Below are positions 1,857-19,212 of a stretch of DNA of 62,401 bases, one piece after another. The notes beneath the pieces were generated by a model, which ran no database searches, was not told the origin of the DNA, and saw only the letters and a program-made list of their open reading frames with translations. Source of the stretch: a virus; the IMG/VR virus record IMGVR_UViG_3300042894_008338, positions 1-62,401 of that record; one strand, written 5' to 3'. The number at the start of each line of letters is the position of its first letter. Position 1 is the stretch's first letter. Made by a program: the position numbers and the translations under genes.

Positions 1857-2963
1857 ATGGACATACCATTATTCAAAGTTTTCATGTCACCATTTGTTGA
1901 TTCATCTTTGAGTTCTGTATTACATTCAGGATTTATAGGGCAAGGCAAAGTTGTTGACATTTTCGAGAGTGAGTTATCTTCTTTTTTCAATCATTACCGT
2001 GTTTTGTCGATGAATAGTTGTACTAGTTCTATTCATTTGGCTTTGCACATGATCCGTGGTTGTGGTCGTGACGAGGTTTTGACAGTTCCTGTGACATGTA
2101 CTGCTAGTAATTTGCCTATTTTGGCTAATGGTTTGCGTCCTGTATTTGTTGATACGGATGTGAGGAATTGCAACATTGATTTAGTTGATTTGGGTAGGAA
2201 GATTAATGAGAGAACTCTGGCAGTATTGATTGTTCATTGGGCTGGTTATCCTGTTGACATGCATGAGGTTGAGAGAATTTTGGATAATGCTGAAAGGGTT
2301 TATGGTTTTCGGCCATATTTGATTGAAGATTGCGCTCATGCATTTGGAAGCAAGTATATGGGTAGGAATGTAGGTACATGGGGATTTGGTTGTTATAGTT
2401 TTGGTCCTATCAAGCATTTGACATGTGGAGATGGAGGTGCATTGTTGTGTCCTTCTTCTGATTTTTATGATCGTGGTAAATTATTACGTTGGTATGGTTT
2501 AGACAGGAGTGGCAGGTCTGATTTCAGATGTGAGCAAGAAATTGTTGATTGGGGATATAAGTTTCATATGAATGATATCAGTGCTTGTATTGGTTTAGAG
2601 AATTTGAGGGTTATAAAGCCATATTTGGATCAGCAGAAGTTTAATGGTGAATTTTTGGATAAGACTTTGGATGGTTTTTCGGGTATTCATTTAGTTGAGC
2701 GTGTAACTGGTTATGATTCTGCTCATTGGGTTTACACTCTTTTGGTAGATGATCGTGATAGTTTTATATCTAAGATGAAATCTTGTGGTATAGGTTGTAG
2801 TCGTGTTCATGACAGGAATGATAAGCATCCATGTTTAGGTGGTTTAGGTAATTTGCAGGGAACTGATTATGTCGTTGAGAGGATGGTGTCGATACCATGT
2901 GGTTGGTGGGTTGGTCGTGAGGATTTAGAGTATATTGTCAGTTCTGTTCGTAGTGGTTGGTGA
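1857..2963 (+). CDS. DegT/DnrJ/EryC1/StrS family PLP aminotransferase
   Basis: 368 residues, the normal length for the family. The N-terminus IPLFKVFMSP, the glycine-rich SGFIGQG segment and LSMNSCTSSIHLAL match the family fold. D158 in LIEDCAHAFGS should bind the pyridine nitrogen and K186 in SFGPIKHLTCGDGGA is the Schiff-base lysine. Such enzymes transaminate keto-sugars on the way to amino-sugars of surface glycans. The divergent neighbours are glycosyltransferases and a methyltransferase, and a GNAT acetyltransferase lies downstream, fitting an N-acetylated amino-sugar pathway; that pathway is inferred. Sense-strand composition is unusually T/G rich. Confidence 0.88.
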   Translation: MDIPLFKVFMSPFVDSSLSSVLHSGFIGQGKVVDIFESELSSFFNHYRVLSMNSCTSSIHLALHMIRGCGRDEVLTVPVTCTASNLPILANGLRPVFVDTDVRNCNIDLVDLGRKINERTLAVLIVHWAGYPVDMHEVERILDNAERVYGFRPYLIEDCAHAFGSKYMGRNVGTWGFGCYSFGPIKHLTCGDGGALLCPSSDFYDRGKLLRWYGLDRSGRSDFRCEQEIVDWGYKFHMNDISACIGLENLRVIKPYLDQQKFNGEFLDKTLDGFSGIHLVERVTGYDSAHWVYTLLVDDRDSFISKMKSCGIGCSRVHDRNDKHPCLGGLGNLQGTDYVVERMVSIPCGWWVGREDLEYIVSSVRSGW

Positions 2964-3033
2964 TTTTGCTTTACAGTCAAGATTTTTCCTTATATATTGT
3001 TTGTAGTGATGTCATGGGTTAAGGGGTTTTGTT

Positions 3034-3873
3034 GTGAGCAAATACTTTGTTAATTTGAACAATGAGGTACATGGTCCGATGTCTGTTTCAGACATTGCCT
3101 CATTGATTCGCAAAAAGAAGTTGATGCTAGATGGGCAGGTTAAAATACAGGGAAGCAAGTCATGGGTTGACGCATTGAGCGTTCCAGAAATTATGGATGC
3201 AATTTCTAGTGTTGAAGTTTTAGAGGAATTTTCAGAAGATAAGCCTAAAAAGGTTAAGAAGAAGAAAAAGCAAAGTGACCCTTTGAGTGAATTTTTACCT
3301 GATTTGAATTTTATTCGCACTTATTTTATGGAAGGCAAATCGATTCAGTATGTTTTTGGTGTTATGTTGATTGTTTCTGGTATTATTTTAACTATTGGTT
3401 TAGGTCGTGCAGCATATAGTTCCATTGGCGTTGCTTATAATTCTAGTTTTATAAGTTTTTATATTCTATGTATTTGTTTGTTATACAGCATGTATCTTAC
3501 GATTGCAATTTGTGTGAGTGAATCTATCAGGATGTTTAGTTCTATTGATACTGAGTTTCCTGTTTATGGTATTGTTGTTCGTTTTATTGATATTTTTGCC
3601 GCTTTGGGTTTAGTTTTTGGGCTAATGATTTCTTTAGTTGCTTCTATTTTTGTTTTTGAGATGGATTTTATTTTGAGAAAGCCTCAAGCTGTTAATGGTC
3701 CATTTGGATTTCCTGAGCAACAAGATTTCCAATGGTATACGCCATTATTGGTTCCTGTTGTTGGTGTACTTGCAAGTTTTTCTTGGTATATTTGTGTTAA
3801 GTGGTTTAAGGAAGTTAATTTTTGCATCTTGTCAATTGCTGAAAATACCAGTCAGATTCGCAAGAATGGTTAA
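3034..3873 (+). CDS. GYF_2-domain multi-pass membrane protein
   Basis: 279 residues from a GTG start preceded by a good ribosome site (AAGGGG about 8 bases upstream). Residues 4-50 (YFVNLNNEVHGPMSV...SWVDAL) match the GYF_2 (DUF4339) module, which binds proline-rich peptides. A lysine-rich linker (70-80) precedes four likely membrane spans near 106-124, 138-160, 182-208 and 232-256. Planctomycetes carry many proteins of this build. The GYF module is expected to face the cytoplasm. Partner and role unknown. Confidence 0.75.
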   Translation: MSKYFVNLNNEVHGPMSVSDIASLIRKKKLMLDGQVKIQGSKSWVDALSVPEIMDAISSVEVLEEFSEDKPKKVKKKKKQSDPLSEFLPDLNFIRTYFMEGKSIQYVFGVMLIVSGIILTIGLGRAAYSSIGVAYNSSFISFYILCICLLYSMYLTIAICVSESIRMFSSIDTEFPVYGIVVRFIDIFAALGLVFGLMISLVASIFVFEMDFILRKPQAVNGPFGFPEQQDFQWYTPLLVPVVGVLASFSWYICVKWFKEVNFCILSIAENTSQIRKNG

Positions 3874-3897
3874 TTTTTCATCTATGGGAGCATGATG

Positions 3898-4479
3898 ATG
3901 TTAAATTCCAATGATCTTTGGAGGCCTGTATTTTTCATTGATATGGAGGGAACTATTCTTTCCACTGTTACTGATAATTTATTAGATCGTATGCAGCATG
4001 GTGATCGGAAAAATTTGAAGGATTTTTCTGATTATGTTAAGAGTAAGGGATTTCAGTTAAATGATAGGTATTTGGTATTGAGGCCGAAAATCAAGGTTTT
4101 GTTGCGTGGTTTGAGGGAATTGGGTAAGGTTGTTTTGTTCAGTGGTGCGAATCAATCTGAGGTTAATGAGAATGTGAAGGCTTGTGGACTGGAAGATTTG
4201 CTAGATGGCTGGTTTGGTTCTGGTTCTGGTTTAAGCTCTAATGGTTGGCCTTTGGTGGGAGATGGTGGTTTTTGTTTGATTGATGATACTTATAATGCTG
4301 GCAAGTTGAGTGTTATTTTGGACAGACTTTCAGATGAAACTGATATGGAGCGTCATTTAATTAAGGTTGATAGCTTTAATGGTGATGATTCAGACGTAGA
4401 GTGTCATCGAGTTTTGAAGATGGTTCAATCTCGATGTGCGAGTGGTCTTTATTATTATCCATTGAATAATAAAGGTTAG
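3898..4479 (+). CDS. HAD-superfamily (FCP1/NIF-like) phosphatase
   Basis: Three consecutive ATGs occur at 3892-3900; the third (3898) has ideal spacing from GGGAG, giving 193 residues. FFIDMEGT (about 12-19) is HAD motif I, LRPKIKVLLRGL resembles the NIF/FCP1 segment, LFSGANQ holds motif II Ser/Thr (S82), and CLIDDTYN (127-134) is motif IV. The second acid of the DxD pair is Glu instead of Asp (D15-x-E17), unusual for phosphatases, which may alter or weaken activity. Lies in the rightward run after the GYF_2 gene. Substrate unknown. Confidence 0.65.
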   Translation: MLNSNDLWRPVFFIDMEGTILSTVTDNLLDRMQHGDRKNLKDFSDYVKSKGFQLNDRYLVLRPKIKVLLRGLRELGKVVLFSGANQSEVNENVKACGLEDLLDGWFGSGSGLSSNGWPLVGDGGFCLIDDTYNAGKLSVILDRLSDETDMERHLIKVDSFNGDDSDVECHRVLKMVQSRCASGLYYYPLNNKG

Positions 4480-4526
4480 TTTGGTTCAAACTATAAAAAA
4501 TTAACTTGACTGGTTAATTCCTGTCA

Positions 4527-4718
4527 TTGTTTTTGAAAAATTCACTTATATCTTTTCTATTATACATTATTGGCTGGTCAGATAGTGGAGGTCGTTTTCA
4601 CACTTTCCTGACCCGGTATCTGTTTACGCAAAAGCGAAGATTAAGTGTTGTCAGCTATGCGACAGCCATATTTATTATTTTCAGTTTAATTGTGCCTAAT
4701 TTTTTTAGGGTTAATTAA
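4527..4718 (+). CDS. Possible small membrane protein
   Basis: 63 residues if read from TTG at 4527; no ATG start and no strong ribosome site. Two hydrophobic stretches (ISFLLYIIGW and SYATAIFIIFSLIVPNFF) are present. Its stop codon overlaps the next start as TAATG at 4716-4720, an arrangement repeated at 5479-5483 and suggestive of real coupled translation. Otherwise unrecognised. Confidence 0.35.
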   Translation: MFLKNSLISFLLYIIGWSDSGGRFHTFLTRYLFTQKRRLSVVSYATAIFIIFSLIVPNFFRVN

Positions 4719-5230
4719 TGTTTAATTACGATTTAGTTTTACGCAAGGCTGATAAGAGTGATTTGAAGGAAATGTATGATTTGAAGCAAGAGGTTTCTAA
4801 ATTTCATCATAGGGTAGCGATATTGAATGATGAAGACCAATTGAGATGGTTTGATGGTATTGATAAAGATGTTTACTATCCGAATAGTCTTGTTTTGATT
4901 GGTATAGATCCAGAAATGGATGAAAATGTTGGTGTTTTGTTTTTAACGAACATTAATTACGTCAATAGGACAGCTGACGTTGGTTGTGACATATACAAGA
5001 ATTATCGTAGTAAGGGTTTTGGCAATCGTTTGATGAAGTCTGGGGTTAAATTTTGTCGTGAAATTTTGAATCTTAGAAAATTGAGTTGTGAGGTATTGGA
5101 TTTCAACATAGCTAGTCAGAAGATGTGTGAGCGTTGTGGTTTTGTGCGTGAGGGAGTTCGTATTCAGCATGTTTATAAGGAAAATAAATATGTTGACAGT
5201 GTGATTTATGGTTGTTTTTTGAAAGATTAA
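4718..5230 (+). CDS. GNAT-family N-acetyltransferase (RimJ/RimL-like)
   Basis: 170 residues. The acetyl-CoA pyrophosphate loop is R97-x-x-G-x-G in YRSKGFGNRLMKSG, followed by LSCEVLDFNIASQKMCERCGF, the usual motif B with the conserved Asn and the CGF turn. The N-terminus LVLRKADKSDLKEMYDL is a typical GNAT start. Coupled by TAATG to the preceding small frame. Together with the upstream aminotransferase it could N-acetylate an amino-sugar, or act on a protein terminus; substrate not shown by sequence. Confidence 0.82.
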   Translation: MFNYDLVLRKADKSDLKEMYDLKQEVSKFHHRVAILNDEDQLRWFDGIDKDVYYPNSLVLIGIDPEMDENVGVLFLTNINYVNRTADVGCDIYKNYRSKGFGNRLMKSGVKFCREILNLRKLSCEVLDFNIASQKMCERCGFVREGVRIQHVYKENKYVDSVIYGCFLKD

Positions 5231-5857: not shown

Positions 5858-7297
5858 ATGAGATTATCTGAACGTAGCAGCAAAATGCTTAGAGAAACCG
5901 TTGAGGACAAAAAGCTTCTTGTGGTGGAATTGGCAAAAGTTTGCAGTACCAAGCAAGAGTTTCTTGAAACGGTGATGCATGAATTTGGTCAAGATAAAGA
6001 TTTTAATGAGATTTATGATACGATCAAGAAGACTGCTACAAACCTTTATGACAAGTATGCGCCAAAAGAGATAAAAGACTTCGTTTCAAAAGCTGCGCCT
6101 TCGTATCAACAGTCATATGAAAAGTACAGCGATCCTAAGAACATTGATGAAATGGAAAGAGGCGTAAAAGAGTTTGCATCACAGTTGGGTGAAGGCCTAA
6201 AAAATGCTAATGCAATTTTCAATATGGTTGGTAAGCCGATAGGCATAGGCACAAAAGACCTTCCTTTTATACTTTCGATTATAATTGCTGGATCGACAGG
6301 TGGAATTGGTGCGATTCCTTATGCGCTTGTTCAGTATTTCGTTAGGAAGCAGATATATGGTGGTGCGGGAAAACTTTACGACAAAGTAGTTGGGACACAA
6401 CAAAATCCAGCTATGGAAAATATATTATCAAACAAGTACCTTAAGCGACTATGGGAAGCTAACGAATACAGAGATGATTTAAGAAGAAAAACGGCAGAGA
6501 GAGCGGGTTCTGTAGCTGGGGCAATATCAGGAAATGCAAAAATTGCCATGACTGCCATTAAAAAGTATATGCCACAGCTTGTTAATATGGCTAATGAAAA
6601 CAAAGTAGCGATAGGTAAAACCATATTCCTTTACGGAATTGGTGTTCTGATGGGAATGGGTGCAGCGAAGATACATGATTTAGCGTCAGGAAAACCTCAA
6701 CAAGATGCGCTTGATGGTCTTAAAATGATGGGTTATAATGATAAAGAGATAGCTGAACTTAAAGAAATGATACGTCTTACAGATAAAATGGGATCACCTA
6801 ACTGGGAGCCAAATCAAGAAGACAATGATAGATTATCTCAGATACTTAAAAATCAACAATTGGCTGATATTAGGACTAATATAGATCATAATGATCCTAA
6901 CATGAGAATGGCGGCTCATGCTGCATCGCAAGGTGATCTAGAAAAAGCGCATTTTTATCAGCAACAAGCAGCAGAAGAAAATATGAAAAAATTCATGGCT
7001 GGAAAATTTACTGATGTAAAAGGTCCACTGACATATGATGGCCCCAAATTTTCACCAGAACAATCAGCAAAATTCTTACAGAACCAACCAACACCAGAAC
7101 AAATTGACGCAGCAGTACCTATACCGTCTATTTATCGTGCTGCGGAAAAGGGGTCTGAAGAACTTAACAAGATTGGTGATGCGTTTAGTGACTACACAAA
7201 TAAAAATAGAAGCTTAGATAGTATACTTGGAGACTTTGAAACCAATCAAGATATAGTTGATCGAATTAATAAAACATTATCAAGAAGTGGTAAGTAA
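5858..7297 (+). CDS. Large hypothetical protein with two hydrophobic segments
   Basis: 479 residues with a good ribosome site (AAAGGTG) before ATG 5858. Helical N-terminal third, then two hydrophobic glycine-rich segments near 135-160 (FILSIIIAGSTGGIGAIPYALV) and 251-270 (IFLYGIGVLMGMGA), then a hydrophilic helical C-terminus rich in Gln and Asn. No family recognised. Sense strand is A-rich with ctt, ata and gca codons, unlike the ttg/gtt-rich genes just upstream, so it has a different compositional history. A virion or membrane-active role would fit the architecture but is not supported further. Confidence 0.65.
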   Translation: MRLSERSSKMLRETVEDKKLLVVELAKVCSTKQEFLETVMHEFGQDKDFNEIYDTIKKTATNLYDKYAPKEIKDFVSKAAPSYQQSYEKYSDPKNIDEMERGVKEFASQLGEGLKNANAIFNMVGKPIGIGTKDLPFILSIIIAGSTGGIGAIPYALVQYFVRKQIYGGAGKLYDKVVGTQQNPAMENILSNKYLKRLWEANEYRDDLRRKTAERAGSVAGAISGNAKIAMTAIKKYMPQLVNMANENKVAIGKTIFLYGIGVLMGMGAAKIHDLASGKPQQDALDGLKMMGYNDKEIAELKEMIRLTDKMGSPNWEPNQEDNDRLSQILKNQQLADIRTNIDHNDPNMRMAAHAASQGDLEKAHFYQQQAAEENMKKFMAGKFTDVKGPLTYDGPKFSPEQSAKFLQNQPTPEQIDAAVPIPSIYRAAEKGSEELNKIGDAFSDYTNKNRSLDSILGDFETNQDIVDRINKTLSRSGK

Positions 7298-7309
7298 ATT
7301 GGTAGAGTT

Positions 7310-7696
7310 CTAATTCTTTTTTAGAATTCTGGCTAGTTGTGTGGTTTTATTAACAAGATTATCGCTTGGTGCTATGAATGTGAAGATGATTTTTTCATCT
7401 TCTTCTTGATAAGCTGGTGTGTCGTAGATTTTTTTTAATTTTACCAAGCAATTATTATGTTCTCTGATATTTAAATTGATGATTAGTTTAGCTGTTATGA
7501 AGACGCTGGTGATAGTTGTGATGATGGAAACAAAAAAAACAGCGATGTACATTTCGTATAGGCAGAGAGATGTTATTGCACCCAAGCATACAAAAATTCT
7601 GAAGACATCGAAATAGTCAAAGAGTTCTGGTGGTTTGGGTATAATGATGAAATAATTTTTTTTCTTATCTTCTGGGTACATAAAATTTGTTATCAT
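7310..7696 (-). CDS. Hypothetical two-span membrane protein
   Basis: 128 residues. Residues about 31-75 hold two adjacent membrane spans (FVCLGAITSLCLYEMYIAVFF and SIITTITSVFITAKLII); both tails are charged and likely cytoplasmic. Ribosome site AAGGAA lies upstream of ATG 7696. Convergent with the preceding rightward gene, with only 12 bases between stops. Not recognised. Confidence 0.6.
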   Translation of the reverse strand: MITNFMYPEDKKKNYFIIIPKPPELFDYFDVFRIFVCLGAITSLCLYEMYIAVFFVSIITTITSVFITAKLIINLNIREHNNCLVKLKKIYDTPAYQEEDEKIIFTFIAPSDNLVNKTTQLARILKKN

Positions 7697-7752
7697 GAAA
7701 TTCCTTATTAAGTGAATTATCCATCATAATAATTAAAAATTTGATGAGATAC

Positions 7753-7784
7753 GGGCGGGAATGATCATAAGGTCATTCCCGCCC
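7753..7784. terminator. Strong hairpin, likely transcription terminator
   Basis: Perfect 12-bp stem GGGCGGGAATGA / TCATTCCCGCCC with an 8-base loop, far more GC-rich than its surroundings. It sits 3' of the leftward gene 7844-8137 and ahead of the leftward gene 7310-7696. No strong U-tract on either side, so it may act as a pause, a processing site or a factor-assisted terminator. Confidence 0.7.
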
Positions 7785-7843
7785 ATTTAATTTAGTGTTG
7801 TGGTGGTGTAAAAAGAGGCAAGTTATTTTACTTGTCTCGAATT

Positions 7844-8137
7844 TCAGTCCTGACAGCACTGTTCTGGCGGTGTGTCTTTGTGTCTAGGACAAACACCTTC
7901 TTTTTTGTGTTTTTCGTCACATTTGCTGTTGCTGCCACAGCATTTTTTTACTGGTTGTTGTTCGTATTCCTCCTGCATTTGATTGTCGAACATCATAGCC
8001 ATTGAAAGAGCCATTTGTTGGGCATCTGTCAAGTTTTCTGCTTCTTCTTGAATATTCTCTGGGAGTGGTGGATCTGATTCGACAGCCACAGTCACTCCTT
8101 CTTCCATATCTTCAAAAGTGATTGTTACTTTGGCCAT
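7844..8137 (-). CDS. Small acidic protein with cysteine-rich tail
   Basis: 97 residues. The N-terminal half starts MAKVTITFEDMEEGVTVAVE and is acidic; residues 64-95 hold seven cysteines (CCGSNSKC...CPRH...CC), a possible metal-binding or disulfide cluster. Lies 7 bases after the next gene upstream, so both are probably one transcript, ended by the hairpin at 7753-7784. Family not recognised. Confidence 0.65.
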   Translation of the reverse strand: MAKVTITFEDMEEGVTVAVESDPPLPENIQEEAENLTDAQQMALSMAMMFDNQMQEEYEQQPVKKCCGSNSKCDEKHKKEGVCPRHKDTPPEQCCQD

Positions 8138-8144
8138 GGTGGAC

Positions 8145-8741
8145 TCATTTCTTTTCAGTGGTTTTAGGTGCTTCTTTAGGGGCTTCTGGGGCCTTTGGCT
8201 CTAGTTTTGGGTTCTTGATCAACTCGATATTTTTGCGGCGCTGTTCGGCCTCATCGAGAGCCTTATTGAATTGTTGAGACTCCATATCAATCTGCTTATC
8301 TTGTTGATATTTGAAAGCAGCGTTTTCACGGGCACTGGCTGGACATCCCATGTCTTCTGTTGCTCTGTGGTATCCGCTGATGTATGCGGATTCTTCGACA
8401 ATTGCGAGTTGTCCCATTCCCCGATAATAGCCTTCGTGCCAGATTGCGCTTGTTTGGTTTTGTTCTGGTGGAATGTTCATACTAGCTGCGACCATTCCTT
8501 CGACACGACCAGTATTACGAGCAACTTCTGAGATATTGTCTCTGAGTTCGCTCATACGGGACATAATTACATCATTGAGACTATCGCTCATGATTGATTC
8601 TTTTTGCTTAACAAGTTCATTGATCGTCTTGATACGTTCGATCTGTTCTTGTTGTATGATATTGTAACCTATGCTGCCTGTTGCGGCGATGGCTATAAAA
8701 ACACCGATCCAGTTACCAGACCTAGAGAAGAAGCGGTTCAT
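8145..8741 (-). CDS. Membrane-anchored coiled-coil hypothetical protein
   Basis: 198 residues; ribosome site GAGGGAACAC precedes ATG 8741. One membrane span near 9-28 (WIGVFIAIAATGSIGYNII), then a long charged helical region (30-175) and a Lys/Pro/Glu-rich tail (PKAPEAPKEAPKTTEKK). Single-pass protein with a large soluble domain; side of membrane unclear. GC content is higher than most neighbours. A hairpin with an AUGGA loop lies just upstream (8762-8783). Confidence 0.65.
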   Translation of the reverse strand: MNRFFSRSGNWIGVFIAIAATGSIGYNIIQQEQIERIKTINELVKQKESIMSDSLNDVIMSRMSELRDNISEVARNTGRVEGMVAASMNIPPEQNQTSAIWHEGYYRGMGQLAIVEESAYISGYHRATEDMGCPASARENAAFKYQQDKQIDMESQQFNKALDEAEQRRKNIELIKNPKLEPKAPEAPKEAPKTTEKK

Positions 8742-8761
8742 GTGTTCCCTCGATTGAAGAG

Positions 8762-8783
8762 TAGGCGATTTCCATGTCGCCTA
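8762..8783 (-). promoter_or_regulatory. 5'-UTR hairpin with GGA in the loop (possible CsrA site)
   Basis: Seven-base-pair stem TAGGCGA / TCGCCTA on the leftward transcript with loop CATGGAAA, about 20 bases ahead of the start of the gene at 8741. A loop-exposed A(U)GGA is the core of known CsrA sites, and this window encodes a CsrA. The link is inference. Confidence 0.35.
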
Positions 8784-8834
8784 ATGCATGAAGTTACTTG
8801 TTTTTTTTAATATTGCAAGAAAAATTTTAAGTTT

Positions 8835-9257
8835 TTATTTTTTTTTAATTCTTGTTCTTCGTTTAAGTTGAGATTCTCCATGAGAGTCAATTTTTTTCTT
8901 ATCCATAAATTCGTCTGTATTTTCGAGTGCTGTTTCGGCTTGTTTTACATATTTAGTTTCGATTTCTGCTGTGAATATGGTTACTAGGCTACCGAGTGAG
9001 GGTAGTTCATCTTGATTGTTTACTAATTGTAGGACAACAGAGCCAGTATTTTTAAGTTCTTCTTCTAGTTGTTCTGATGTGTAATTGTGTAAATTATCAG
9101 GATAGAATTCATCTCTTCTCCATTGAATTTGCCAATTGCCAGAATATTGTTGCCCTTTTTCAGATTTTAGAGCGGATTCGGCTAAAACTATCGCACTTGC
9201 TGCGCTTTTACGTTCTTTAGGAACAGGATCAAAGCCCAGATGAACGAAGCAATTCAT
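8835..9257 (-). CDS. Hypothetical protein, basic C-terminus
   Basis: 140 residues from ATG 9257 (MNCFVHLGFDPVP), chosen because GGAGG lies 5-6 bases upstream; it overlaps the stop of the upstream gene. The C-terminus (SQLKRRTRIKKK) is strongly basic. No motif recognised. Translationally coupled with the cysteine-containing protein before it. Confidence 0.6.
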   Translation of the reverse strand: MNCFVHLGFDPVPKERKSAASAIVLAESALKSEKGQQYSGNWQIQWRRDEFYPDNLHNYTSEQLEEELKNTGSVVLQLVNNQDELPSLGSLVTIFTAEIETKYVKQAETALENTDEFMDKKKIDSHGESQLKRRTRIKKK

Positions 9258-9520
9258 TTTTCCTCCGTGTTTTGTGAACACATTATTTGTGCATCATGGC
9301 CGATATATTCCTTCATGTATTGTTGAATATCAACATTAACATCCTTATTTCGACAATCAGGGCATACAGCGCACTTATAGGTATATAGTGTTCTGTATGC
9401 AGGAGGCAAGTGAGTATTTTCAATCAATCTGAACAACTCACAAGAATCTTTCCATTTTAAACAAAAAATGCATTGTGTGAATCTTGGTTGTTTATTGAAT
9501 TGCAATTCTATGTTGAACAT
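9254..9520 (-). CDS. Small putative zinc-binding protein
   Basis: 88 residues. Two cysteine pairs, C-I-F-C (about 18-21) and C-A-V-C-P-D-C (about 50-56), plus C27, could hold zinc. Its stop overlaps the start of the downstream gene (ATGA). Ribosome site AAGGTG upstream of ATG 9520. No family recognised. Confidence 0.6.
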   Translation of the reverse strand: MFNIELQFNKQPRFTQCIFCLKWKDSCELFRLIENTHLPPAYRTLYTYKCAVCPDCRNKDVNVDIQQYMKEYIGHDAQIMCSQNTEEK

Positions 9521-9538
9521 TCAATCACCTTTTGAAAT

Positions 9539-9976
9539 TTAGTCTTGAGGCATTCCTTCCATCTTTATGTATAGCATATTAGGTGGCGCAAGGAAATAAC
9601 TGTTTAGATAAGGGCATATCCAAGCGGACTGCCCGGGAATTATTCCCTTCAGGTTTAGTTCAATGATCTTGTAGACCCATCCGTCAAATTTTTGTTCTAC
9701 ATATTCAAATTGAACATCAGCATTGGGAAAATAATTTTGTGAGAATAAAAGGTAGAAGCCTTTTTGGGGTTCTTTAATATTTTTTTGTTGACATCCGAGA
9801 TTAATTAATCTATCAGCGCCAACAATTAGTGGTCCGAGAACATATTCTGTGAAATTCGCTGGGGCCATATCGTATAATTTGCCATCTTTTTCAAATACCC
9901 AGCGTCCTTTTTCTTGTTTGCATTTGAGAACATTGACGCCGATCTTGTCAAAATCAGTCATGTCTGTCGTTGCCAT
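9539..9976 (-). CDS. Hypothetical protein
   Basis: 145 residues, starts MATTDMTDFDKIGVNVLKCK. Mixed alpha/beta composition with several aromatic residues; the C-terminal part (SAWICPYLNSYFLAPP) is distinctive. It has the look of small planctomycete families with a W/F-rich core, but I cannot name one. Follows in the leftward run of small genes, 19 bases before the next one. Confidence 0.6.
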   Translation of the reverse strand: MATTDMTDFDKIGVNVLKCKQEKGRWVFEKDGKLYDMAPANFTEYVLGPLIVGADRLINLGCQQKNIKEPQKGFYLLFSQNYFPNADVQFEYVEQKFDGWVYKIIELNLKGIIPGQSAWICPYLNSYFLAPPNMLYIKMEGMPQD

Positions 9977-10036
9977 TTGTGTTTATCCGTGTGTAACTCA
10001 GCATCAAAGCCTATTATGCAATAAAAATGTGGTCAG

Positions 10037-10501
10037 TCAAGAAAAATAATTGATGTCATGTTTGTTGTATACAAGAAATTCAATCTGTTTCTTTTTACTA
10101 TAAGCATGAATTTCCACATCAATATTTAAATTTATTTGTGAATTATATCTAATAAACCTTTTAGTTTCAAGCATAGCTTCGTAGAGATTTGGCGTAGAGA
10201 AGACAAATGGTTGTTTTTCGTATTCTTCCAAAACAATTCGTTCTGGGACAGATAGGTCCGCTCTATCTGCGTAGCGTTTTCCTGTAACGAAATAAATATT
10301 CCACTCTAACGGCATCAATGATTTAAGAGCTTTTTTAATATCGCTTATTATGTTTTTGTCTTTGTTTTCACCTTGTATTTCTTTTGTTATTTCCGCAGGA
10401 AATCTGAATTCACTGTCATCGTAGCAGTGTCTTTTAGCGTTGTAGGCAAAAATTTTTTTACCGTAAACATTTAATTTTTCTTCAACAAAAAAAATATTCA
10501 T
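10037..10501 (-). CDS. Hypothetical protein, member A of a triplicated family
   Basis: 154 residues. Residues around 80-100 (LMPLEWNIYFVTGKRYADR) align with the same region of the two upstream neighbours (HPILWKIKFLDSKRYAS and SIPLIWKIFFTIPNRI), each followed by an acidic D-x-S/D-I-D-like stretch, an E-x(6)-Q-Y/F-like helix and a proline near the end. The three are divergent tandem paralogues. Function unknown. Confidence 0.6.
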   Translation of the reverse strand: MNIFFVEEKLNVYGKKIFAYNAKRHCYDDSEFRFPAEITKEIQGENKDKNIISDIKKALKSLMPLEWNIYFVTGKRYADRADLSVPERIVLEEYEKQPFVFSTPNLYEAMLETKRFIRYNSQINLNIDVEIHAYSKKKQIEFLVYNKHDINYFS

Positions 10502-10526
10502 TATTTCTAAAGCCTTGAATTGATTG

Positions 10527-11180
10527 TCAAAATTTTTGATCAGTGTAAGGTTGTTTCATTTTTATTGAAATTAATTTAGGTATATTTTTGACAGTTGCCC
10601 AAGAAACCTTTTTCCCTTTGTATTGCATGGAATATTTATGACCTGATATTTCCATCTTTGGTGGATTAAGTGATATTGACGCATATTGTTGCCGAATTGT
10701 TTCTACTATTACACAAGCATCTGCGAAAGAAATAGTATTGATTATTTTATTAGAATCAAAGTTTATTTTATATTTTAAATTAATTGGCTTAACATCTATG
10801 TCATGCTCTGAAGCATACCTTTTGGAGTCAAGAAATTTAATTTTCCAAAGTATTGGATGCTGATCATATATTTGCTTATCTATTTCTGCGACGATAGACA
10901 AAAACATATACCTTTGAGAATCTTTGACGCTGAGTCCATCTTTTTTATTTTCTTTTATTAAAATGTATTCATTATATTCTGAATGATATTTTTTAACGAA
11001 ACAATCGACATCTTTAAGAATGCTGGAATTGTGTTTTGATGCTAAATTATTTTTATTTGAAACCCAGTTATCAGAATTGTCAATTATTATGTCTTCGCCA
11101 TTATTTTTGATAATTTTTTTGGCAAATTTTTTAATTTCATTTTCATACAATCTTGCTTGTTCATGTGGGTTCATTGTCAT
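10527..11180 (-). CDS. Hypothetical protein, member B of a triplicated family
   Basis: 217 residues from ATG 11180 (or ATG 11174, which has better spacing from GGTGA). Central motif HPILWKIKFLDSKRYASEHDID, quoted here in part, matches the neighbours' P-L-x-W-K/N-I-x-F core; the downstream helix IRQQYASISLNPPKMEI matches LKKQYEKIGLQLPEIIV of member C. Start overlaps the stop of member C by about 20 bases, so the two are co-translated. Function unknown. Confidence 0.6.
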   Translation of the reverse strand: MTMNPHEQARLYENEIKKFAKKIIKNNGEDIIIDNSDNWVSNKNNLASKHNSSILKDVDCFVKKYHSEYNEYILIKENKKDGLSVKDSQRYMFLSIVAEIDKQIYDQHPILWKIKFLDSKRYASEHDIDVKPINLKYKINFDSNKIINTISFADACVIVETIRQQYASISLNPPKMEISGHKYSMQYKGKKVSWATVKNIPKLISIKMKQPYTDQKF

Positions 11181-11847
11181 CTTTCACCATAAATTTTTCA
11201 ACAGTGATATAATCAGGAACAATATACCATCCAATTTCACGATTTTGCTTAAAGGATTTTACAATTATTTCTGGTAATTGTAAACCAATTTTTTCATATT
11301 GTTTTTTTAATTTTTCTTTAGCACTTATGGCCCTGATAGGAGAATTAAACAAAACCTCATCATTTTTATCAAAATCAATGAATTTTGGGTCAAAATCAAT
11401 GTCATCTTTGACAACAATTCTATTGGGAATGGTGAAAAATATTTTCCAAATTAAAGGAATGGATGAAATTAAATAATTAGATAAAGATTTACGAAAATCG
11501 TCTAGCATTCTATTTTCTGATCTTGTTTTGTCGTTAGTGGAAAAAATACGTTGACGATGAATGCTCGTAAAGCTTGAAAATTTTATTTCTGATTCTATAA
11601 AATCAATCATTTCTGGAGGGCAAAATCCCAAAATGTTTTCAAAAAAAATCATTTCATCTTCTGGAGATGTTTTTTTTAATCCAACTTCAAGATAGAATTT
11701 CCACAATTTTGTCTCGACATTATTAATTGAAATTTTTCTTTCCAAAAATGAAATGCAAAAAGATCGTAGATTCTTTTGCACCATAGATGCAATAAAGCCA
11801 TCGTACAAAGACTCAATGCTGTATTCTGTATTATATATTCTTTTCAT
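11161..11847 (-). CDS. Hypothetical protein, member C of a triplicated family
   Basis: 228 residues from ATG 11847; a GTG four codons upstream is possible. Shares the SIPLIWKIFFTIPNR core and the QYEKIGLQLPEI segment with the next two genes downstream. N-terminal 110 residues are helical and unmatched. Starts the three-gene leftward operon just 3' of a strong terminator (11874-11909) that isolates it from the gene further upstream. Function unknown. Confidence 0.6.
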   Translation of the reverse strand: MKRIYNTEYSIESLYDGFIASMVQKNLRSFCISFLERKISINNVETKLWKFYLEVGLKKTSPEDEMIFFENILGFCPPEMIDFIESEIKFSSFTSIHRQRIFSTNDKTRSENRMLDDFRKSLSNYLISSIPLIWKIFFTIPNRIVVKDDIDFDPKFIDFDKNDEVLFNSPIRAISAKEKLKKQYEKIGLQLPEIIVKSFKQNREIGWYIVPDYITVEKFMVKDDNEPT

Positions 11848-11873
11848 GGATTGAATCACCAGTCAAAAGAAAA

Positions 11874-11909
11874 AGGACAAGAATTACAGTTATAAGCAAT
11901 TCTTGTCCT
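11874..11909 (-). terminator. Rho-independent terminator
   Basis: Twelve-base-pair perfect stem AGGACAAGAATT / AATTCTTGTCCT, 12-base loop, followed on the leftward strand by TTTTCTTTT. Ends the transcript of the exported protein at 11917-12366. Confidence 0.85.
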
Positions 11910-11916
11910 CAATAAT

Positions 11917-12366
11917 TTACTTGAACTTAACAGCCATTTCCACAGGCTTGAGGTAGAATTGAACTATTGATGCTTCCTGAACTTCAAGGATTCTATCTAG
12001 ATTAACTTCGTTCTTGCTTGAGACTGTATGTGCTCTCAAAACATATCCTTCTGGTATTGGCATTTTAATGTCAATACTAGCAGATAGCCATTTATTGTCA
12101 TCTGTAAAAAATACACAAGATGCAATCCCTGCTTGATCAAAACGGGTTATTGTCTTGTTGTCTTTTTTTTCATATCGCACAATAAAAACTGGAGTTTCCT
12201 TGAATTCCTTCATGATCTTATCAGCAGCATTCCTTTTATAGAAAATCTTTTCCGATTCATTAATCGGACTCACTCCAATAGTCTCGATTTTCATAAATGG
12301 TAAGACTGCGCTTATCTTATCGGTTTTTACTTGTTGACTGAGGCATAAGAAAATCAAGAAAAACAT
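11917..12366 (-). CDS. Probable exported hypothetical protein
   Basis: 149 residues. A short hydrophobic start (MFFLIFLCLSQQV) looks like a signal peptide, followed by a soluble mixed domain with no cysteine pairs or known motif. Ribosome site AAGGAGAATTT precedes ATG 12366. Flanked by terminators on both sides (12387-12418 upstream, 11874-11909 downstream), so it is a single-gene transcript. Function unknown. Confidence 0.65.
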   Translation of the reverse strand: MFFLIFLCLSQQVKTDKISAVLPFMKIETIGVSPINESEKIFYKRNAADKIMKEFKETPVFIVRYEKKDNKTITRFDQAGIASCVFFTDDNKWLSASIDIKMPIPEGYVLRAHTVSSKNEVNLDRILEVQEASIVQFYLKPVEMAVKFK

Positions 12367-12386
12367 AAATTCTCCTTAAATAAAAA

Positions 12387-12418
12387 CTTTAGGCAGGCTT
12401 TTGAGGGCCTGCCTAAAG
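12387..12418 (-). terminator. Rho-independent terminator
   Basis: Twelve-base-pair stem CTTTAGGCAGGC / GCCTGCCTAAAG with an 8-base loop, followed on the leftward strand by TTTTTA. Ends the transcript of the gene 12432-12704. Confidence 0.88.
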
Positions 12419-12431
12419 CTTTTATGCTGTA

Positions 12432-12704
12432 TTACTTCTTTTCTTGAATTACTACAGAGGTGTTACGAGGTTTCCACTTTCCGAAAAGACCCCGCTTTTC
12501 TTCAACAACCAGAGTTGCTGGTGATGTGCTGGTCTTGGTCACTACTTCAGTCTTGAGAACTTCGACTGGACTTGTGACGATTCGATAACGGCTTGGTTTG
12601 GCTACGACGACAACTTCAGTTGTCTTAGCCGCCTGAGCCTTCTCGTCGCCAGCGAAGGCGACAGAAGCAGCGAGAATTCCGAAACCAGCAATAATCTTCT
12701 TCAT
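12432..12704 (-). CDS. Small exported valine/threonine-rich protein
   Basis: 90 residues from ATG 12704, chosen because GGAG lies 7 bases upstream (an in-frame TTG further up contains that site). Residues 1-18 (MKKIIAGFGILAASVAFA) are a clear Sec signal peptide with an AFA cleavage site. The mature part repeats Val/Thr/Lys strings (EVVVVAKP, EVVTKTST) and ends basic. Such short exported proteins are common in planctomycetes. It has its own sigma-70-type promoter (12760-12788) and terminator, pointing to strong independent expression. Relatively GC-rich. Function unknown. Confidence 0.75.
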   Translation of the reverse strand: MKKIIAGFGILAASVAFAGDEKAQAAKTTEVVVVAKPSRYRIVTSPVEVLKTEVVTKTSTSPATLVVEEKRGLFGKWKPRNTSVVIQEKK

Positions 12705-12759
12705 GAGAAACTCCAAATTGCGCCAAGTTCGTCAACCGTGACATTTATGGCACAGAATC

Positions 12760-12788
12760 AATATACCGTAATTTCAATCAAGTAGCAA
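12760..12788 (-). promoter_or_regulatory. Sigma-70-type promoter
   Basis: On the leftward strand, TTGCTA (-35) and TATATT (-10) with 17 bases between, about 56 bases upstream of the start at 12704. Confidence 0.55.
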
Positions 12789-13019
12789 CTACTTTTTTAA
12801 CTGTTCATCGATCTGATTCACGAGATCATTAAAACTAAGTATTTGACAATCTTCACGGAGCTTAACATTAAAATGGTCTTCGACACAGAATAATATATCC
12901 ATCATGTCTAAGCTATCAAGAGACTTGAAGTTTTCATCCCATTCTCTTATATCTTTGACTGGTCCAACACACAATCTATCGGTTAATAGCTTGGAAACAA
13001 TATCACTAGTATCATCCAT
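12789..13019 (-). CDS. acpP-like: Acyl carrier protein
   Basis: 76 residues from ATG 13019 (an in-frame TTG sits three codons upstream). Size, acidity and the D35-S36-L37-D38 motif in FKSLDSLDMMDILFCVEDHF (helix II of ACPs) identify it; S36 should receive the 4'-phosphopantetheine arm. It carries activated acyl or aminoacyl groups as thioesters in the cytoplasm. No fatty-acid or polyketide enzyme is nearby, but a PaaK/CapK-like adenylating enzyme lies 29 kb away (41675-42709) and could be a partner; this is inference. An ACP on a phage genome is rare. Confidence 0.82.
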   Translation of the reverse strand: MDDTSDIVSKLLTDRLCVGPVKDIREWDENFKSLDSLDMMDILFCVEDHFNVKLREDCQILSFNDLVNQIDEQLKK

Positions 13020-13110
13020 AATGTCCAAATCCTTAAAATAATTGTCAATACACTTGAGCGAAAAGATTTTTAATCGAAGCGACTTAATTTTACAACAAAA
13101 ATATTCATTA

Positions 13111-14013
13111 TTAATCTTTGTTGGTCAACTCAGAAATTAATTTGGCGATTGCAACTTCTTTCGCTTTTGCTTCGACTTCAACAGTTATTTTCTGTTCAAG
13201 CCAAAAACGAGGGAAATCACTAGCATTGATATAATCATGATGACTTCTTTCATCTAAATGATCATAACCGCTGATAGGACTCGAAATATGGAAAAGAGGT
13301 TCTCTATTCCATGTCTTGATAGCAAGATCAGTGGCCTCTGAACAAGAAAACTCATCTGGATTGCAACGATGATGGTGAACATCGTAAACAAGAGGAATTC
13401 CTATATTATCACAGAGAGGTAATAAATCACTTGGAGTATAACTGACATCATCATTCTCAACAGTGAGAAGTTTTCTCGCCCTATAACTTAGCTTACTGAA
13501 ATTATGGGCGAATAATTTCAAGGCTTCTTCCTTTCCATTGACGGCTGATCCTCCATGGATGTTAACGACATCTGCTCCGACCCATTCAGCAACTTCTGAC
13601 TGATATTCGATTTCTTTGATACTTGCTTCGTTTACATCAGGATAGATGGAATTTAGTAGCACAAACTGATCAGGATGAAATGTTGTCCTCACGTCATTAT
13701 CTTTTGCGTACTGACCAGCTTTGACGAAAGCTGAAATGATTTCCTTGTAGTCTGGTATTTCCTCAATCTTATATCCAGCCTGAGGATGTGTCTTGATTGG
13801 AAGGATTCGGCTATTGATTCGGAAGCATCCTATATTATTCTTTTTACAAAAAATTAAGGCTTCCATGAGTGACTTGGTATTTTCCAAGCAGAGAGACGAA
13901 ATCTTTTTAAGTGCTTCTTGTCGATCAAGCTTAAGAATGTGCGTGACCGTAGTGGTGCGGAATTTGATTGGTTCTTGGAAGAAAACGCAACAAAGGCCAA
14001 AGCGAATATTCAT
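13111..14013 (-). CDS. uvsE: UV damage endonuclease UvsE/UVDE
   Basis: 300 residues from ATG 14013 (MNIRFGLCC), with AGGA upstream; longer reading would run into the divergent gene. Family signatures: FGLCCVFF at the start, CFRINSRILPIKTHP, TTFHPDQFVLLNS, VVNIHGGSAVNGKEEAL, LTVENDDVSYTPSDLLPLC, VYDVHHHRCNP. The His, Glu and Asp residues in these blocks bind the metal cluster of the TIM barrel. The enzyme nicks DNA 5' of UV photoproducts and other lesions, starting excision repair. Length is close to bacterial UvsE (about 300-320). Divergent from a small membrane protein gene with about 27 bases between starts. Confidence 0.93.
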   Translation of the reverse strand: MNIRFGLCCVFFQEPIKFRTTTVTHILKLDRQEALKKISSLCLENTKSLMEALIFCKKNNIGCFRINSRILPIKTHPQAGYKIEEIPDYKEIISAFVKAGQYAKDNDVRTTFHPDQFVLLNSIYPDVNEASIKEIEYQSEVAEWVGADVVNIHGGSAVNGKEEALKLFAHNFSKLSYRARKLLTVENDDVSYTPSDLLPLCDNIGIPLVYDVHHHRCNPDEFSCSEATDLAIKTWNREPLFHISSPISGYDHLDERSHHDYINASDFPRFWLEQKITVEVEAKAKEVAIAKLISELTNKD

Positions 14014-14040
14014 GTTCATCCTAAATATAAGGGGGTGAAA

Positions 14041-14277
14041 ATGCGTGACACAATCTTTTTCATAGTTGGGTTGATCATTGTCTTTGCCATGGGTTTCGCA
14101 GGAATTTACGATTACTATTTGTTTGTAACAAATCAAACAACTTTTTCAACAGCAGTCCGTGAATATACAGCAATCAACGCCGACAGACCGTGCCTATTTG
14201 TTTTTATAGGCACAGTCATTGGATTAATTGTCGGTCTTATTTTAGGCTTCATACTTGGGCATTTATTCTGGACATGA
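14041..14277 (+). CDS. Small two-span membrane protein
   Basis: 78 residues from ATG 14041, preceded by a very strong ribosome site (AAGGGGGTGAAA). Longer in-frame starts upstream run antisense through uvsE and lack such a site. Two membrane spans (about 4-25 and 51-76), the second rich in glycine (GLIVGLILGFILGHLF). Its 3' end overlaps the convergent sigma-like gene by 29 bases. Not recognised; holin-like size but no further support. Confidence 0.65.
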   Translation: MRDTIFFIVGLIIVFAMGFAGIYDYYLFVTNQTTFSTAVREYTAINADRPCLFVFIGTVIGLIVGLILGFILGHLFWT

Positions 14278-15214
14278 CCGATGCAACCTTTCGTTTGGCA
14301 GATTCAAAAATTTGGGTAATCATTTGACGATGATATTTTTTCCCTGTTTTTTGTGAAAAATTATTTTTAGAGATATCAGTCTGCCAACCGTAATATGGAT
14401 TCATACTGGACTCAATGATTTCCCTTTCGATGGGACTTAAATTGCTCATGTCGAGAATTTCCTTGACGCTAATGTTCTGAACAAACAGTTCATTTTCATC
14501 AATTTCTCTAGACTCACTGCCATAGCAGCTATAATCGCTATTTTCATCATTGTCACCTCCGCTTGTTAAAACACTTGCATTAACTACTTTTCGTAAAATA
14601 TCACGAAGATGATTAGAATCATCTTCTGATAGGTTCATAGACTCAATGATTTCATCATTGGTTGCACTTTGATTGCAAATTTTCTTCTTCTGTTTGTTAA
14701 AAGCCCACATGAGCTTCTGCCCAGACTGCATGACATGGCTGAGATTGCAGCCTTGCTCATTGATCACCTTATTCATGTGACGTTTAAGCGACAAGAACAA
14801 AAGAGTTGTCAAGTTTCCCGATTCGGCATTCCACTGATACATAATTTCAAAGGTCTTGATGAAACATTCTTGGACCATATCCTGAAAAGTAAGTGAGGTT
14901 TTTTTGCAATAATTGCTCCACTCGTGAGCAATCTTACGAGCCATGGCGGAATAATTTTCCAGCACAACATGTTCAATGTTATGATTACCGAGAGCAGGAA
15001 TAGGCTGACGAAGCTGTGCTATCCTAGCAGCATCATCGATCAATTCCTGTTTACGGTCTTCATCTACGGGCAGTGAACTGACATCATTGAAAATCTTGGT
15101 GCGTAGTTCACGATGCTTCATTCCTTTGAACACATTGCTCCACTTTCTGATTAACACGTTGATTTCATTCAGGGTTGCATGAACGATGGCCTTCTGATTA
15201 TTGCTAAGACTCAT
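14249..15214 (-). CDS. Sigma-70-like RNA polymerase sigma factor
   Basis: 321 residues, ribosome site CAGGAG before ATG 15214. Residues about 85-150 (MARKIAHEWSNYC...FQDMVQECFIKTFEIMYQW...LTTLLFLSLKRHMNKVINEQG) follow sigma region 2 (2.1-2.4 pattern). A short acidic linker follows, then LSPIEREIIESSMNP and the terminal helices (about 255-315) as a degenerate region 4. No region 1.1. Would direct host or phage RNA polymerase to phage promoters; an anti-sigma or inactive role cannot be excluded. One of four sigma-like genes in the window. Confidence 0.7.
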   Translation of the reverse strand: MSLSNNQKAIVHATLNEINVLIRKWSNVFKGMKHRELRTKIFNDVSSLPVDEDRKQELIDDAARIAQLRQPIPALGNHNIEHVVLENYSAMARKIAHEWSNYCKKTSLTFQDMVQECFIKTFEIMYQWNAESGNLTTLLFLSLKRHMNKVINEQGCNLSHVMQSGQKLMWAFNKQKKKICNQSATNDEIIESMNLSEDDSNHLRDILRKVVNASVLTSGGDNDENSDYSCYGSESREIDENELFVQNISVKEILDMSNLSPIEREIIESSMNPYYGWQTDISKNNFSQKTGKKYHRQMITQIFESAKRKVASVMSRINAQV

Positions 15215-15326
15215 TGCACGGACTCCTGTGAGTTAGCGGAAATAAATCCGCCGATAAACGGCCCCAAATTACCAATCGTACAGGCAAGTACGAAGTTATA
15301 AGCAATTCCTAAGCCTCAAAAAAATC

Positions 15327-16097
15327 ATGAAAATCATACATATGCTCATGGGAAAACAACAACTACTACTACTGTCTATGCCAAACAATGGTTCGGATTG
15401 GTTGGCTGACACATTAATCAATTCGCAAGATGGTGTCAAATATTCGAGAGAATTTTTTAACCCCGCAACAAACCATGAATTTGCGGACAAACTAAACGAA
15501 GCATTCGGAAGTGAATATATCATAAGCTATAAAAATATAATGACATGTGATAATAATAAGTGTTTAGATGTTTTTGTTAATACTTGGAATAAAAAAAAAT
15601 ATAATTTTACCAAGGAAAATTATTCTTGTGCTAAGGTTTCATTTTTTAAAAATCATTTTAATTGTTTTGCTTTGGTTAGAAGTATTAAAGAATCTTTTCC
15701 TTGTAGCAGGAGGACTTCGGTAAATTATTGGTATCTTTCTATTTATCAATCTATAATTGACAACAAGGGTATTTTGCCGTATTTGATTCAATCAAAAATT
15801 GATCATTTTATTAGTAAAACTAAAAAAATTGAAGAAAAAGTTATATTTGCTTATTGCATTTACCGTGAAATATTTTTGTCGGAATGTCAAAAAAATTCAG
15901 TTCCAGTTTTGGATTATAAATTTTTAATGGAAAAAAATGAGTTGGAGATTTGTGATTACTTAAAAAAAATCAATATTCCGTTGAATTATGATGCATGGGC
16001 AAAAGAAGTGTTTGAAACAAGAAAGTATAACAAGCGTGACTTTAAAACATTGAAATGTGATTGGGTAATTGAAGATTATTGTTCAATTATGGTTTGA
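15327..16097 (+). CDS. Sulfotransferase-like protein
   Basis: 256 residues. LLLLSMPNNGSDWLADTL (near residues 13-30) resembles the PAPS 5'-phosphosulfate loop (S-x-P-R-S-G-S-T-W-L) of sulfotransferases, with Asn replacing the usual Arg and Asp replacing Thr, and FALVRSIKESFPCSRR resembles the 3'-phosphate-binding R-x(7)-S segment. The catalytic base is not obvious. The start is uncertain (ATG 15327 or 15348; no good ribosome site). If active it would sulfate a glycan or small molecule. Family call is moderate. Confidence 0.5.
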   Translation: MKIIHMLMGKQQLLLLSMPNNGSDWLADTLINSQDGVKYSREFFNPATNHEFADKLNEAFGSEYIISYKNIMTCDNNKCLDVFVNTWNKKKYNFTKENYSCAKVSFFKNHFNCFALVRSIKESFPCSRRTSVNYWYLSIYQSIIDNKGILPYLIQSKIDHFISKTKKIEEKVIFAYCIYREIFLSECQKNSVPVLDYKFLMEKNELEICDYLKKINIPLNYDAWAKEVFETRKYNKRDFKTLKCDWVIEDYCSIMV

Positions 16098-17176: not shown

Positions 17177-18223
17177 TTACATCATAGGGGGAGCGGGAGG
17201 AGTTCCTTGAGGAGGAGTTCTTTGACCTGCCATTCCAACTGGCGGCATCAAAGAATTTTGATCACTGGGTGTAGTAGTGTCGCCTCCCATTTGAGGGCTT
17301 GCTCCCATTTGAGGGCTTGCTCCCATTTGAGGGCTTGCTCCCATTTGAGGGCTTGCTCCCATTTGAGGGCTTGCTCCCATTTGAGGGCTTGCTCCCATTT
17401 GAGGGCTTGCTCCCATTTGAGGGTCACCTCCCATTTGAGGGCTTGCTCCCATTTGAGGGCTTGCTCCCATTGGATCGTCAGGCATCATTCCCATTTGATT
17501 TTGGCCACCTTGTCCAATTTGCGGAGGAGGTGGAGCAGCGTTCATATTATTTGCGTCTTGTGATTGGGGACCGCCAGCGTTTGCCATATTAAACTGGTCT
17601 GCCCCTTCTGGTGATTCTGGTTTATCTTTGTTATCATCTTCTTTATTATGATGACCGCCAAGTAAAATTCCTAGAACATCATCGGTAGCGTGTTTAATGT
17701 GGCTTACAACAAAATTAGCAAACTTCTTGCCAAGATCTCCGTGAGAATGATCTGTCTTGTGATGCATTGGATCTTTTTCAAGACTCAAGAGTTGATCATC
17801 GAAATCGGAGTTGACAATCATATTCAATGCGTGAAGAGAATCAATATTAGTCAAATGTTTAATCAGGCTTTCGTGAGAGAACACATGCTGTAAGTCCTTC
17901 AAATTTTTAAATTCATGATTATAGACTTGACGAAGATTGCTGCGAATTCCCTCTTTGGTTTTAGCGTGATTAACTAATGCTGCGGCTATAAATTTCAGAC
18001 TCTTAGTTCCCTTGCGATGAGAGTCTACCCATCCTTCAATTTTCTTCTTAATGTTTGCAAGATACCTAATAGAACGAGCTTTTTCTTCAAGTTCGTCTTC
18101 TTCCTTGGCCTGACGGTGAGCCGCTTTCAGGGCATCCATATCATCGTCTGACATATTCTCTCTAGACATTGTTTCGTAAAGATTACGATCACGACCAAAT
18201 AACCAATTATCAAAATTTCTCAT
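17177..18223 (-). CDS. N-terminally tagged protein with MGASPQ repeats (possible internal virion protein)
   Basis: 348 residues from ATG 18223, chosen because GGGGAG is 5 bases upstream. Begins MRNFDNWLFGRDRN, matching a short N-terminal peptide shared by other genes here. Residues about 10-200 are charged and helical, then a His/Asp-rich link, and a Pro/Gln/Met/Gly-rich tail containing ten hexapeptides (MGASPQ, one MGGDPQ) encoded by an 18-bp tandem repeat. Codon-level repeat identity is almost perfect, implying recent expansion. A T4-late-like motif lies just upstream (18241-18251). Role unknown; packaging into the virion is inferred. Confidence 0.7.
   Translation of the reverse strand: MRNFDNWLFGRDRNLYETMSRENMSDDDMDALKAAHRQAKEEDELEEKARSIRYLANIKKKIEGWVDSHRKGTKSLKFIAAALVNHAKTKEGIRSNLRQVYNHEFKNLKDLQHVFSHESLIKHLTNIDSLHALNMIVNSDFDDQLLSLEKDPMHHKTDHSHGDLGKKFANFVVSHIKHATDDVLGILLGGHHNKEDDNKDKPESPEGADQFNMANAGGPQSQDANNMNAAPPPPQIGQGGQNQMGMMPDDPMGASPQMGASPQMGGDPQMGASPQMGASPQMGASPQMGASPQMGASPQMGASPQMGASPQMGGDTTTPSDQNSLMPPVGMAGQRTPPQGTPPAPPMM
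17286..17465 (-). repeat. 18-bp tandem repeat, ten units
   Basis: Ten head-to-tail copies of CCCATTTGAGGGCTTGCT (plus strand), the eighth with the variant end GTCACCT, then a decayed eleventh. It encodes the MGASPQ hexapeptides of the leftward gene 17177-18223. No spacers, so not CRISPR. Copy number is likely to vary between isolates. Confidence 0.97.
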
Positions 18224-18240
18224 AGTTCTCCCCATTGCTT

Positions 18241-18643: not shown

Positions 18644-18660
18644 GACAAAACAATTTTGTC
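18644..18660. promoter_or_regulatory. 17-bp palindrome in a divergent intergenic region
   Basis: GACAAAA-CAA-TTTTGTC, perfect 7-bp arms around 3 bases, between divergent genes 18611 and 18734. Operator-like. A 17-bp palindrome with the same GAC...GTC ends lies at 56371-56387. Confidence 0.4.
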
Positions 18661-18733
18661 AACACCTCTATTTTACATTAGAAAATGGTAATGGTAAAAA
18701 TCTTTACAGTTTTTTGTTCCAAAGGAGAAAAGA

Positions 18734-19015
18734 ATGGAAAAGTTCATCACATGTAAGTGTGGAAGCCCAGATCACATTGTCAGACTGTCGATGAACAAAT
18801 GGGAAAAAGATGGTAAGATTTGCGATCTAGATGTTTCAATAGATATCTATTTAAATCCAGAGAGATCATTTTTTAGAAGAATATGGATTGCAATTAAATA
18901 TATCTTTGGTCATCAGGTCTTTTCTTATGACGAAATTTTGCTTGATGGTGAAAAATCTAAAACAATAATTAATTTTTTGCAAGAATCAGAATTATTGAGA
19001 GAAAGTCTTGATTAG
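18734..19015 (+). CDS. Conserved phage protein with CxC start motif
   Basis: 93 residues, ribosome site AAAGGAG before ATG 18734. Begins MEKFITCKCGSPDHIVRLS and contains SFFRRIWIAIKYIFGH followed by DEILLD, an arrangement I know from small proteins of many large myoviruses. The C-K-C and C-D pair may bind metal. Biochemical role unknown. First gene of a rightward operon that ends with two sigma-like factors. Confidence 0.7.
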   Translation: MEKFITCKCGSPDHIVRLSMNKWEKDGKICDLDVSIDIYLNPERSFFRRIWIAIKYIFGHQVFSYDEILLDGEKSKTIINFLQESELLRESLD

Positions 19016-19029
19016 ATATTGGAGAAAAA

Positions 19030-19212
19030 ATGAGTGAAGTTTCAGATTTTCATGAAAATAATCAACATCTTTTTGACGATGCTATAAAAATGCGTGAATC
19101 AGGTAATGAAAAAGAAGCGAATTTAATTTTTTATCTATTGCATCAGATTGTTGATAAATGTAAAATAATTGACGAGTTGAGAAATGAAACAAAGTATCGT
19201 TGGAGCAAGTAA
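19030..19212 (+). CDS. Small helical protein
   Basis: 60 residues, ribosome site GGAGAAAAA before ATG 19030. Almost entirely helical and charged. Its stop overlaps the next start as TAATG at 19210-19214. No motif. Second gene of the operon. Confidence 0.6.
   Translation: MSEVSDFHENNQHLFDDAIKMRESGNEKEANLIFYLLHQIVDKCKIIDELRNETKYRWSK

Follow-up and report, generated by a model that had tools for sequence, protein, structure and literature searches.

Three adjacent genes of a huge phage, here called A, B and C, are old and strongly diverged true paralogues that constitute a new, unnamed family. As a set of phage accessory genes they are of an ordinary kind, best classed as a lineage-specific tandem family of probable host-interaction proteins. 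The DNA analysed, referred to throughout as the window, is a single IMG/VR virus record (IMGVR_UViG_3300042894_008338) of 62,401 bases. The initial annotation had placed the three genes head to tail, and all of them are indeed found as minus-strand ORFs at the following positions:

11161..11847, minus strand: gene C, an ORF of 228 aa, paralogous with B
10527..11180, minus strand: gene B, an ORF of 217 aa; B and gene X of another huge-phage record (G015) are each other's best match
10037..10501, minus strand: gene A, an ORF of 154 aa, the shortest of the three

In order of transcription, C (11847 to 11161) is followed by B (11180 to 10527) and A (10501 to 10037); the stop of C and the start of B overlap over 20 nt, a gap of 25 nt separates B from A, and a GTG at 11859 is a possible alternative start for C. 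Being adjacent and on the same strand, the genes constitute a tandem set. For each of them the annotated frame has the best codon usage of all six, and a stop-free run of more than 150 codons arose in none of 500 shuffles of the region's DNA, indicating that A, B and C are real genes.

The description of the three as tandem divergent paralogues of an unnamed family holds, with BLASTP, phmmer and shuffle scores above chance in pairwise comparison. By BLASTP, B and C match at E 5e-7 over 91 aa, A and B at E 6e-6 over 36 aa, and A and C at E 0.002 over 37 aa. When each gene was searched with phmmer against the 537 ORFs of the window, the other two were the top non-self matches, with C to A marginal (E 0.012, beside an unrelated ORF at 0.013) and A-C at E 0.017. 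The observed score was reached by 0/5,000 shuffles for B-C, 0/5,000 for A-B and 3/5,000 for A-C. This comparison was run as a refutation check, and the scores of the three pairs exceed noise; a chance or compositional likeness in AT-rich sequence is ruled out by the shuffle and ORF-rank tests. Identity in the domain alignment is 26% for B vs C and 23% for B vs A, and the columns invariant across all three proteins are P, W, I, F, R, D, P, A, I and L.

The motifs proposed earlier were recovered in large part. A core is common to A, B and C in the form P-[LI]-x-W-[KN]-I-x-F, and even a loose version of it occurs in none of the remaining ORFs of the window (537 window ORFs). The segment Q-Y-x-x-I-x-L-x-x-P is present in two genes, B and C, as had been claimed, and gene A carries a weak form of it (RYNSQINLN). 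The acidic stretch said to accompany them is clear in C only, being moderate in B and not clear in A.

Shuffle tests with truncated proteins limit the homology to the C-terminal ~110 aa, so that each product is divided into a shared and an individual part:

11164-11514, gene C: shared domain (C-terminal ~117 aa), with a unique N-terminal part of ~111 aa
10530-10913, gene B: shared domain, with an N-terminal half predicted to be helical
10040-10369, gene A: shared domain, with a short N-terminal part

The relatedness of the N-terminal halves is at or near noise and not measurable, shuffles equalling or exceeding the observed score in 170/5,000 cases for A-B, 3,093/5,000 for B-C and 1,054/5,000 for A-C. 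Past the core, the remainder of the domain scores significantly in B-C (12/5,000 shuffles) and not in the pairs that include A (1,358/5,000 and 3,548/5,000). The shared domain contains no CxxC motifs in any of the three. Two structure models were considered, of B (mean pLDDT 53.9) and of the C domain (51.1), both of low confidence. The B model places helices at residues 5-27, 52-76, 85-107 and 152-168 and strands at 145-149, 177-187 and 190-200. Both models show the same order of elements, a helix and then helix-strand-strand, and they differ at the core strand, where the B model has a short helix. With pairwise scores that exceed noise, and low-confidence models that agree on the order of elements except at the core strand, paralogy is not refuted. 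Three Foldseek searches with these two weak models returned no match at E <= 0.001; rows for the RuBisCO small subunit and EsaG were not significant.

Searches with A, B and C in Pfam, PHROGs and NCBIfam found no family above chance, and profile searches of PDB sequences gave no significant match. An HPF/YhbH-type ribosome hibernation factor was considered and rejected (one chain, E 0.048 and 0.077; no Pfam match to a family of that type). No confirmed close relative was detected in the viral contig collection (queried with A, B, C or the domain profile A2) or in the genome contig collection (A2 or C), and tblastn against 50,697 phage records, with X as a query besides the three genes, yielded no confirmed relative; a single match of B in a Listeria phage among those records, and two matches of B to plasmids, were at chance level. 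With the ClpX-like protein of the window (51992-53266) as bait, 14 related loci were collected and 13 records then searched one by one with A, B and C, giving 0/13 for each. The bait itself is a ClpX-like ATPase with a C4 zinc finger, matched in 123 of the 50,697 phage records at E <= 1e-10. Of 16 related records or fragments from huge phages, 15 had no detectable copy of the family, an absence that is weak evidence because most of the related records are fragments. General literature searches found no published account of the family.

The window holds no further copies. Profile A1, applied to 18 records including the window, recovered only the window's A, B and C and a compositional match at 29797-29994, which is also present in two near-identical records. 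This match (profile E 4.2e-4) was rejected as an extra copy: it falls within a 363-aa ORF, in the K/N/I-rich beginning of this ORF, which appears peptidase-like to judge from its letters alone, and the match has no meaningful score with A2. Matches of a further profile, A5, in two records (G003 and G004) were attributed to chance, since each contains three TGA codons and the G003 match is antisense to ORFs listed there. The two near-identical records, seemingly the same virus in two other assemblies, are 100% identical to the window and break at an 18-base tandem repeat (MGASPQ repeats; window 17276-17474, in ORF 17177-18235); they end within it at about window 17297, so that genes A, B and C are not reached. 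Elsewhere the window encodes an RCC1-like repeat protein (39298-40614; strong Pfam match, E 1e-64) and an Exostosin GT47-like domain (24469-25404; E 2e-15).

Sequence comparison points to one probable homologue, in the 532-kb huge-phage record G015 (IMGVR_UViG_3300049215_000771):

G015, about 180254-180886 (L038:2254-2886): gene X, 211 aa

Among the 574 ORFs of a 40-kb stretch of G015, the best match of B is X (phmmer E 0.0058), and among the 537 window ORFs the best match of X is B (E 0.0033); A2 matches X at E 0.028, and profile A1 alone does not report it at E <= 10. Shuffles reached the B-X score in 0/5,000 cases with B as query and 1/5,000 with X as query. The BLASTP matches are short (25 and 71 aa), and the two matched segments are collinear and lie at both ends of the 217-aa and 211-aa proteins, which are of similar length; the segments are an N-terminal HE...Y...AKKI...GED and a C-terminal FxxxxRxxxxxDxD...A...QxYxxxxxxPPxxExxGY. 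Unlike B, X is without the core P and W, and the two are about 19% identical. Comparisons of X with A and with C are at noise (451/5,000 and 942/5,000 shuffles), with A-X at 9/2,000 shuffles under another score. No second copy was found in G015 with a profile including X, and X has chance-level matches only in PHROGs. In contrast to the window family, X was found as a single copy and sits in a stretch of 53-55% GC.

Like B, X lies upstream of a conserved gene set, which in the window is small (9976 to 7844) and begins 60 nt past A:

9539..9976, minus strand: weakly DUF6717-like protein of 145 aa, the first gene downstream of A
9254..9520, minus strand: small CxxC...CxxC protein of 88 aa, BLASTP E 9e-6 with L038:9958-10257 of G015
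8835..9281, minus strand: next gene of the set, 34% over 112 aa to L038:10254-10568 (E 1.6e-13)
7844..8137, minus strand: acidic protein of 97 aa beginning MAKVTIT, with a G015 counterpart (BLASTP E 3e-5)

The first of these matches Pfam PF20475 at E 1.6e-5 and 25.7 bits, just missing the curated cut-off of 27, and no mention of DUF6717 was found in the literature searched; its counterpart is present in one of 16 records, G015, at 54% identity. There, the DUF6717-like gene is followed in the same order by counterparts of 9254-9520, 8835-9281 and 7844-8137, with other ORFs intervening between the last two, and X sits about 7 kb upstream of the set. Two DUF6717-like copies occur in G015, at L038 9546-9962 (54%) and 18657-19052 (34% identical to the window's). 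Given that X and B are reciprocal best matches and that X, too, has this conserved set in its vicinity, the ancestral form is probably that of B, A and C being duplicates probably added in the lineage of the window virus.

A, B and C have the lowest GC among 15 genes measured locally (0.277-0.303, with 0.281 in C and 0.303 in A, vs 0.313-0.470 in the other 12); acquisition of the three together, as one block, would explain these values equally well. Next to C lies one further element:

11873..11910, minus strand: terminator-like hairpin (15 pairs, T tail), between C and the upstream gene 11917-12366

Terminator-like sites in 7200-15400 number 15, vs a mean of 4.9 in shuffles. The window also carries DegT aminotransferase, GNAT and UvdE genes (1857-5230 and 13111-14136), which stand together in locus L024, with UvdE apart here. 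Three sigma-factor-like proteins (14249-15214, 19655-20497 and 37651-38553) are encoded within the 62-kb fragment; the first has a very weak Pfam match (E 0.21) and relatives in 3/16 huge-phage records.

Starting from the observed paralogy, its C-terminal confinement and the gene order, we tentatively propose tandem duplication, N-terminal divergence and a host-interaction role as the whole explanation, giving it somewhat less than an even chance. The family would predate the triplication, as is suggested by the single probable homologue X, found in a second huge phage in the corresponding neighbourhood; one gene would then have been duplicated in tandem to give A, B and C, with B retaining the original form, and this direction, from B to A and C, is probable. 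After duplication, the C-terminal alpha/beta domain would have been kept, and the N-terminal halves would have been replaced or have diverged past recognition. The products would be three small, probably soluble proteins, expected from one transcript starting after the hairpin at 11873-11910; co-transcription and solubility are what we infer, as are a binding role and the host as target. Most likely, the shared domain would serve for binding or as a scaffold, and each protein would owe a separate target in the infected cell to its own N-terminal part, making the set host-interaction (host-takeover type) accessory proteins. A bolder version, a new family in which a conserved C-terminal recognition module bears exchangeable N-terminal parts that each disarm a different host target, with B/X as the ancestral type retained in distant huge phages, is improbable.

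It is unlikely that A, B and C are phage regulatory or nucleic-acid-binding proteins: B is strongly basic (net charge about +10) and its low-confidence model has a helical N-terminal half, but A (+1) and C (-1) are near neutral and no DNA- or RNA-binding family was matched above chance. Decidedly unlikely is a counter-defence function, one form that the host-interaction reading could take, in which each copy would block a different host defence variant and an arms race would drive divergence. The initial annotation had remarked that arrays of this kind often encode such effectors or variant binding proteins. A tandem, diverged, low-GC accessory set with no detectable copy in most of the related records examined would suit such a function; however, these features suit any accessory phage gene, the adjoining gene set has no known defence link, no named family was matched, and no PADLOC family was matched at E <= 10 by any of the three, anti-defence proteins being outside the scope of PADLOC. 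That the genes are decaying or functionless duplicates, merely carried along, is very improbable, for although divergence is very high and GC low, the three frames are intact without a stop, in-frame codon use is coding-like and the core residues are preserved in all of them. A virion role in the tail tube or baseplate, suggested by the likeness of the P-x-W core to the C-terminal part of the T4-type gp48 tail-tube cap, is scarcely credible: of the three PDB sequences that profile A1 reports at E <= 10, two are related tail-tube cap chains, with P-x-W and FDK positions aligned, but their E-values (0.12 and 0.43) are at chance, A2 does not pick them, no structural family appears in Pfam or PHROGs at E <= 1, and the neighbouring genes that were searched included none recognised as coding for a virion structural protein.

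Read as a tandem-duplicated accessory set, A, B and C offer a shared domain with defined limits, a distant homologue that is probable, and a single- vs three-copy contrast between two viruses; screens for host interaction could sensibly include tandem diverged sets that adjoin conserved genes. Huge phages carry many small families without relatives. With the T4-type gp48 tail-tube cap the family has in common a short resemblance around P-x-W, but the match is not significant and there is no family match in common. Lineage-specific expansions in jumbo phages have been published, an example being the zinc ribbon that Bacillus phage G carries in about 35 copies (PMC7824862). Unlike the zinc ribbons of that phage, which have far more copies, the set analysed here is a different protein in three tandem genes; like them, it is one small protein of uncertain role multiplied by one phage lineage.
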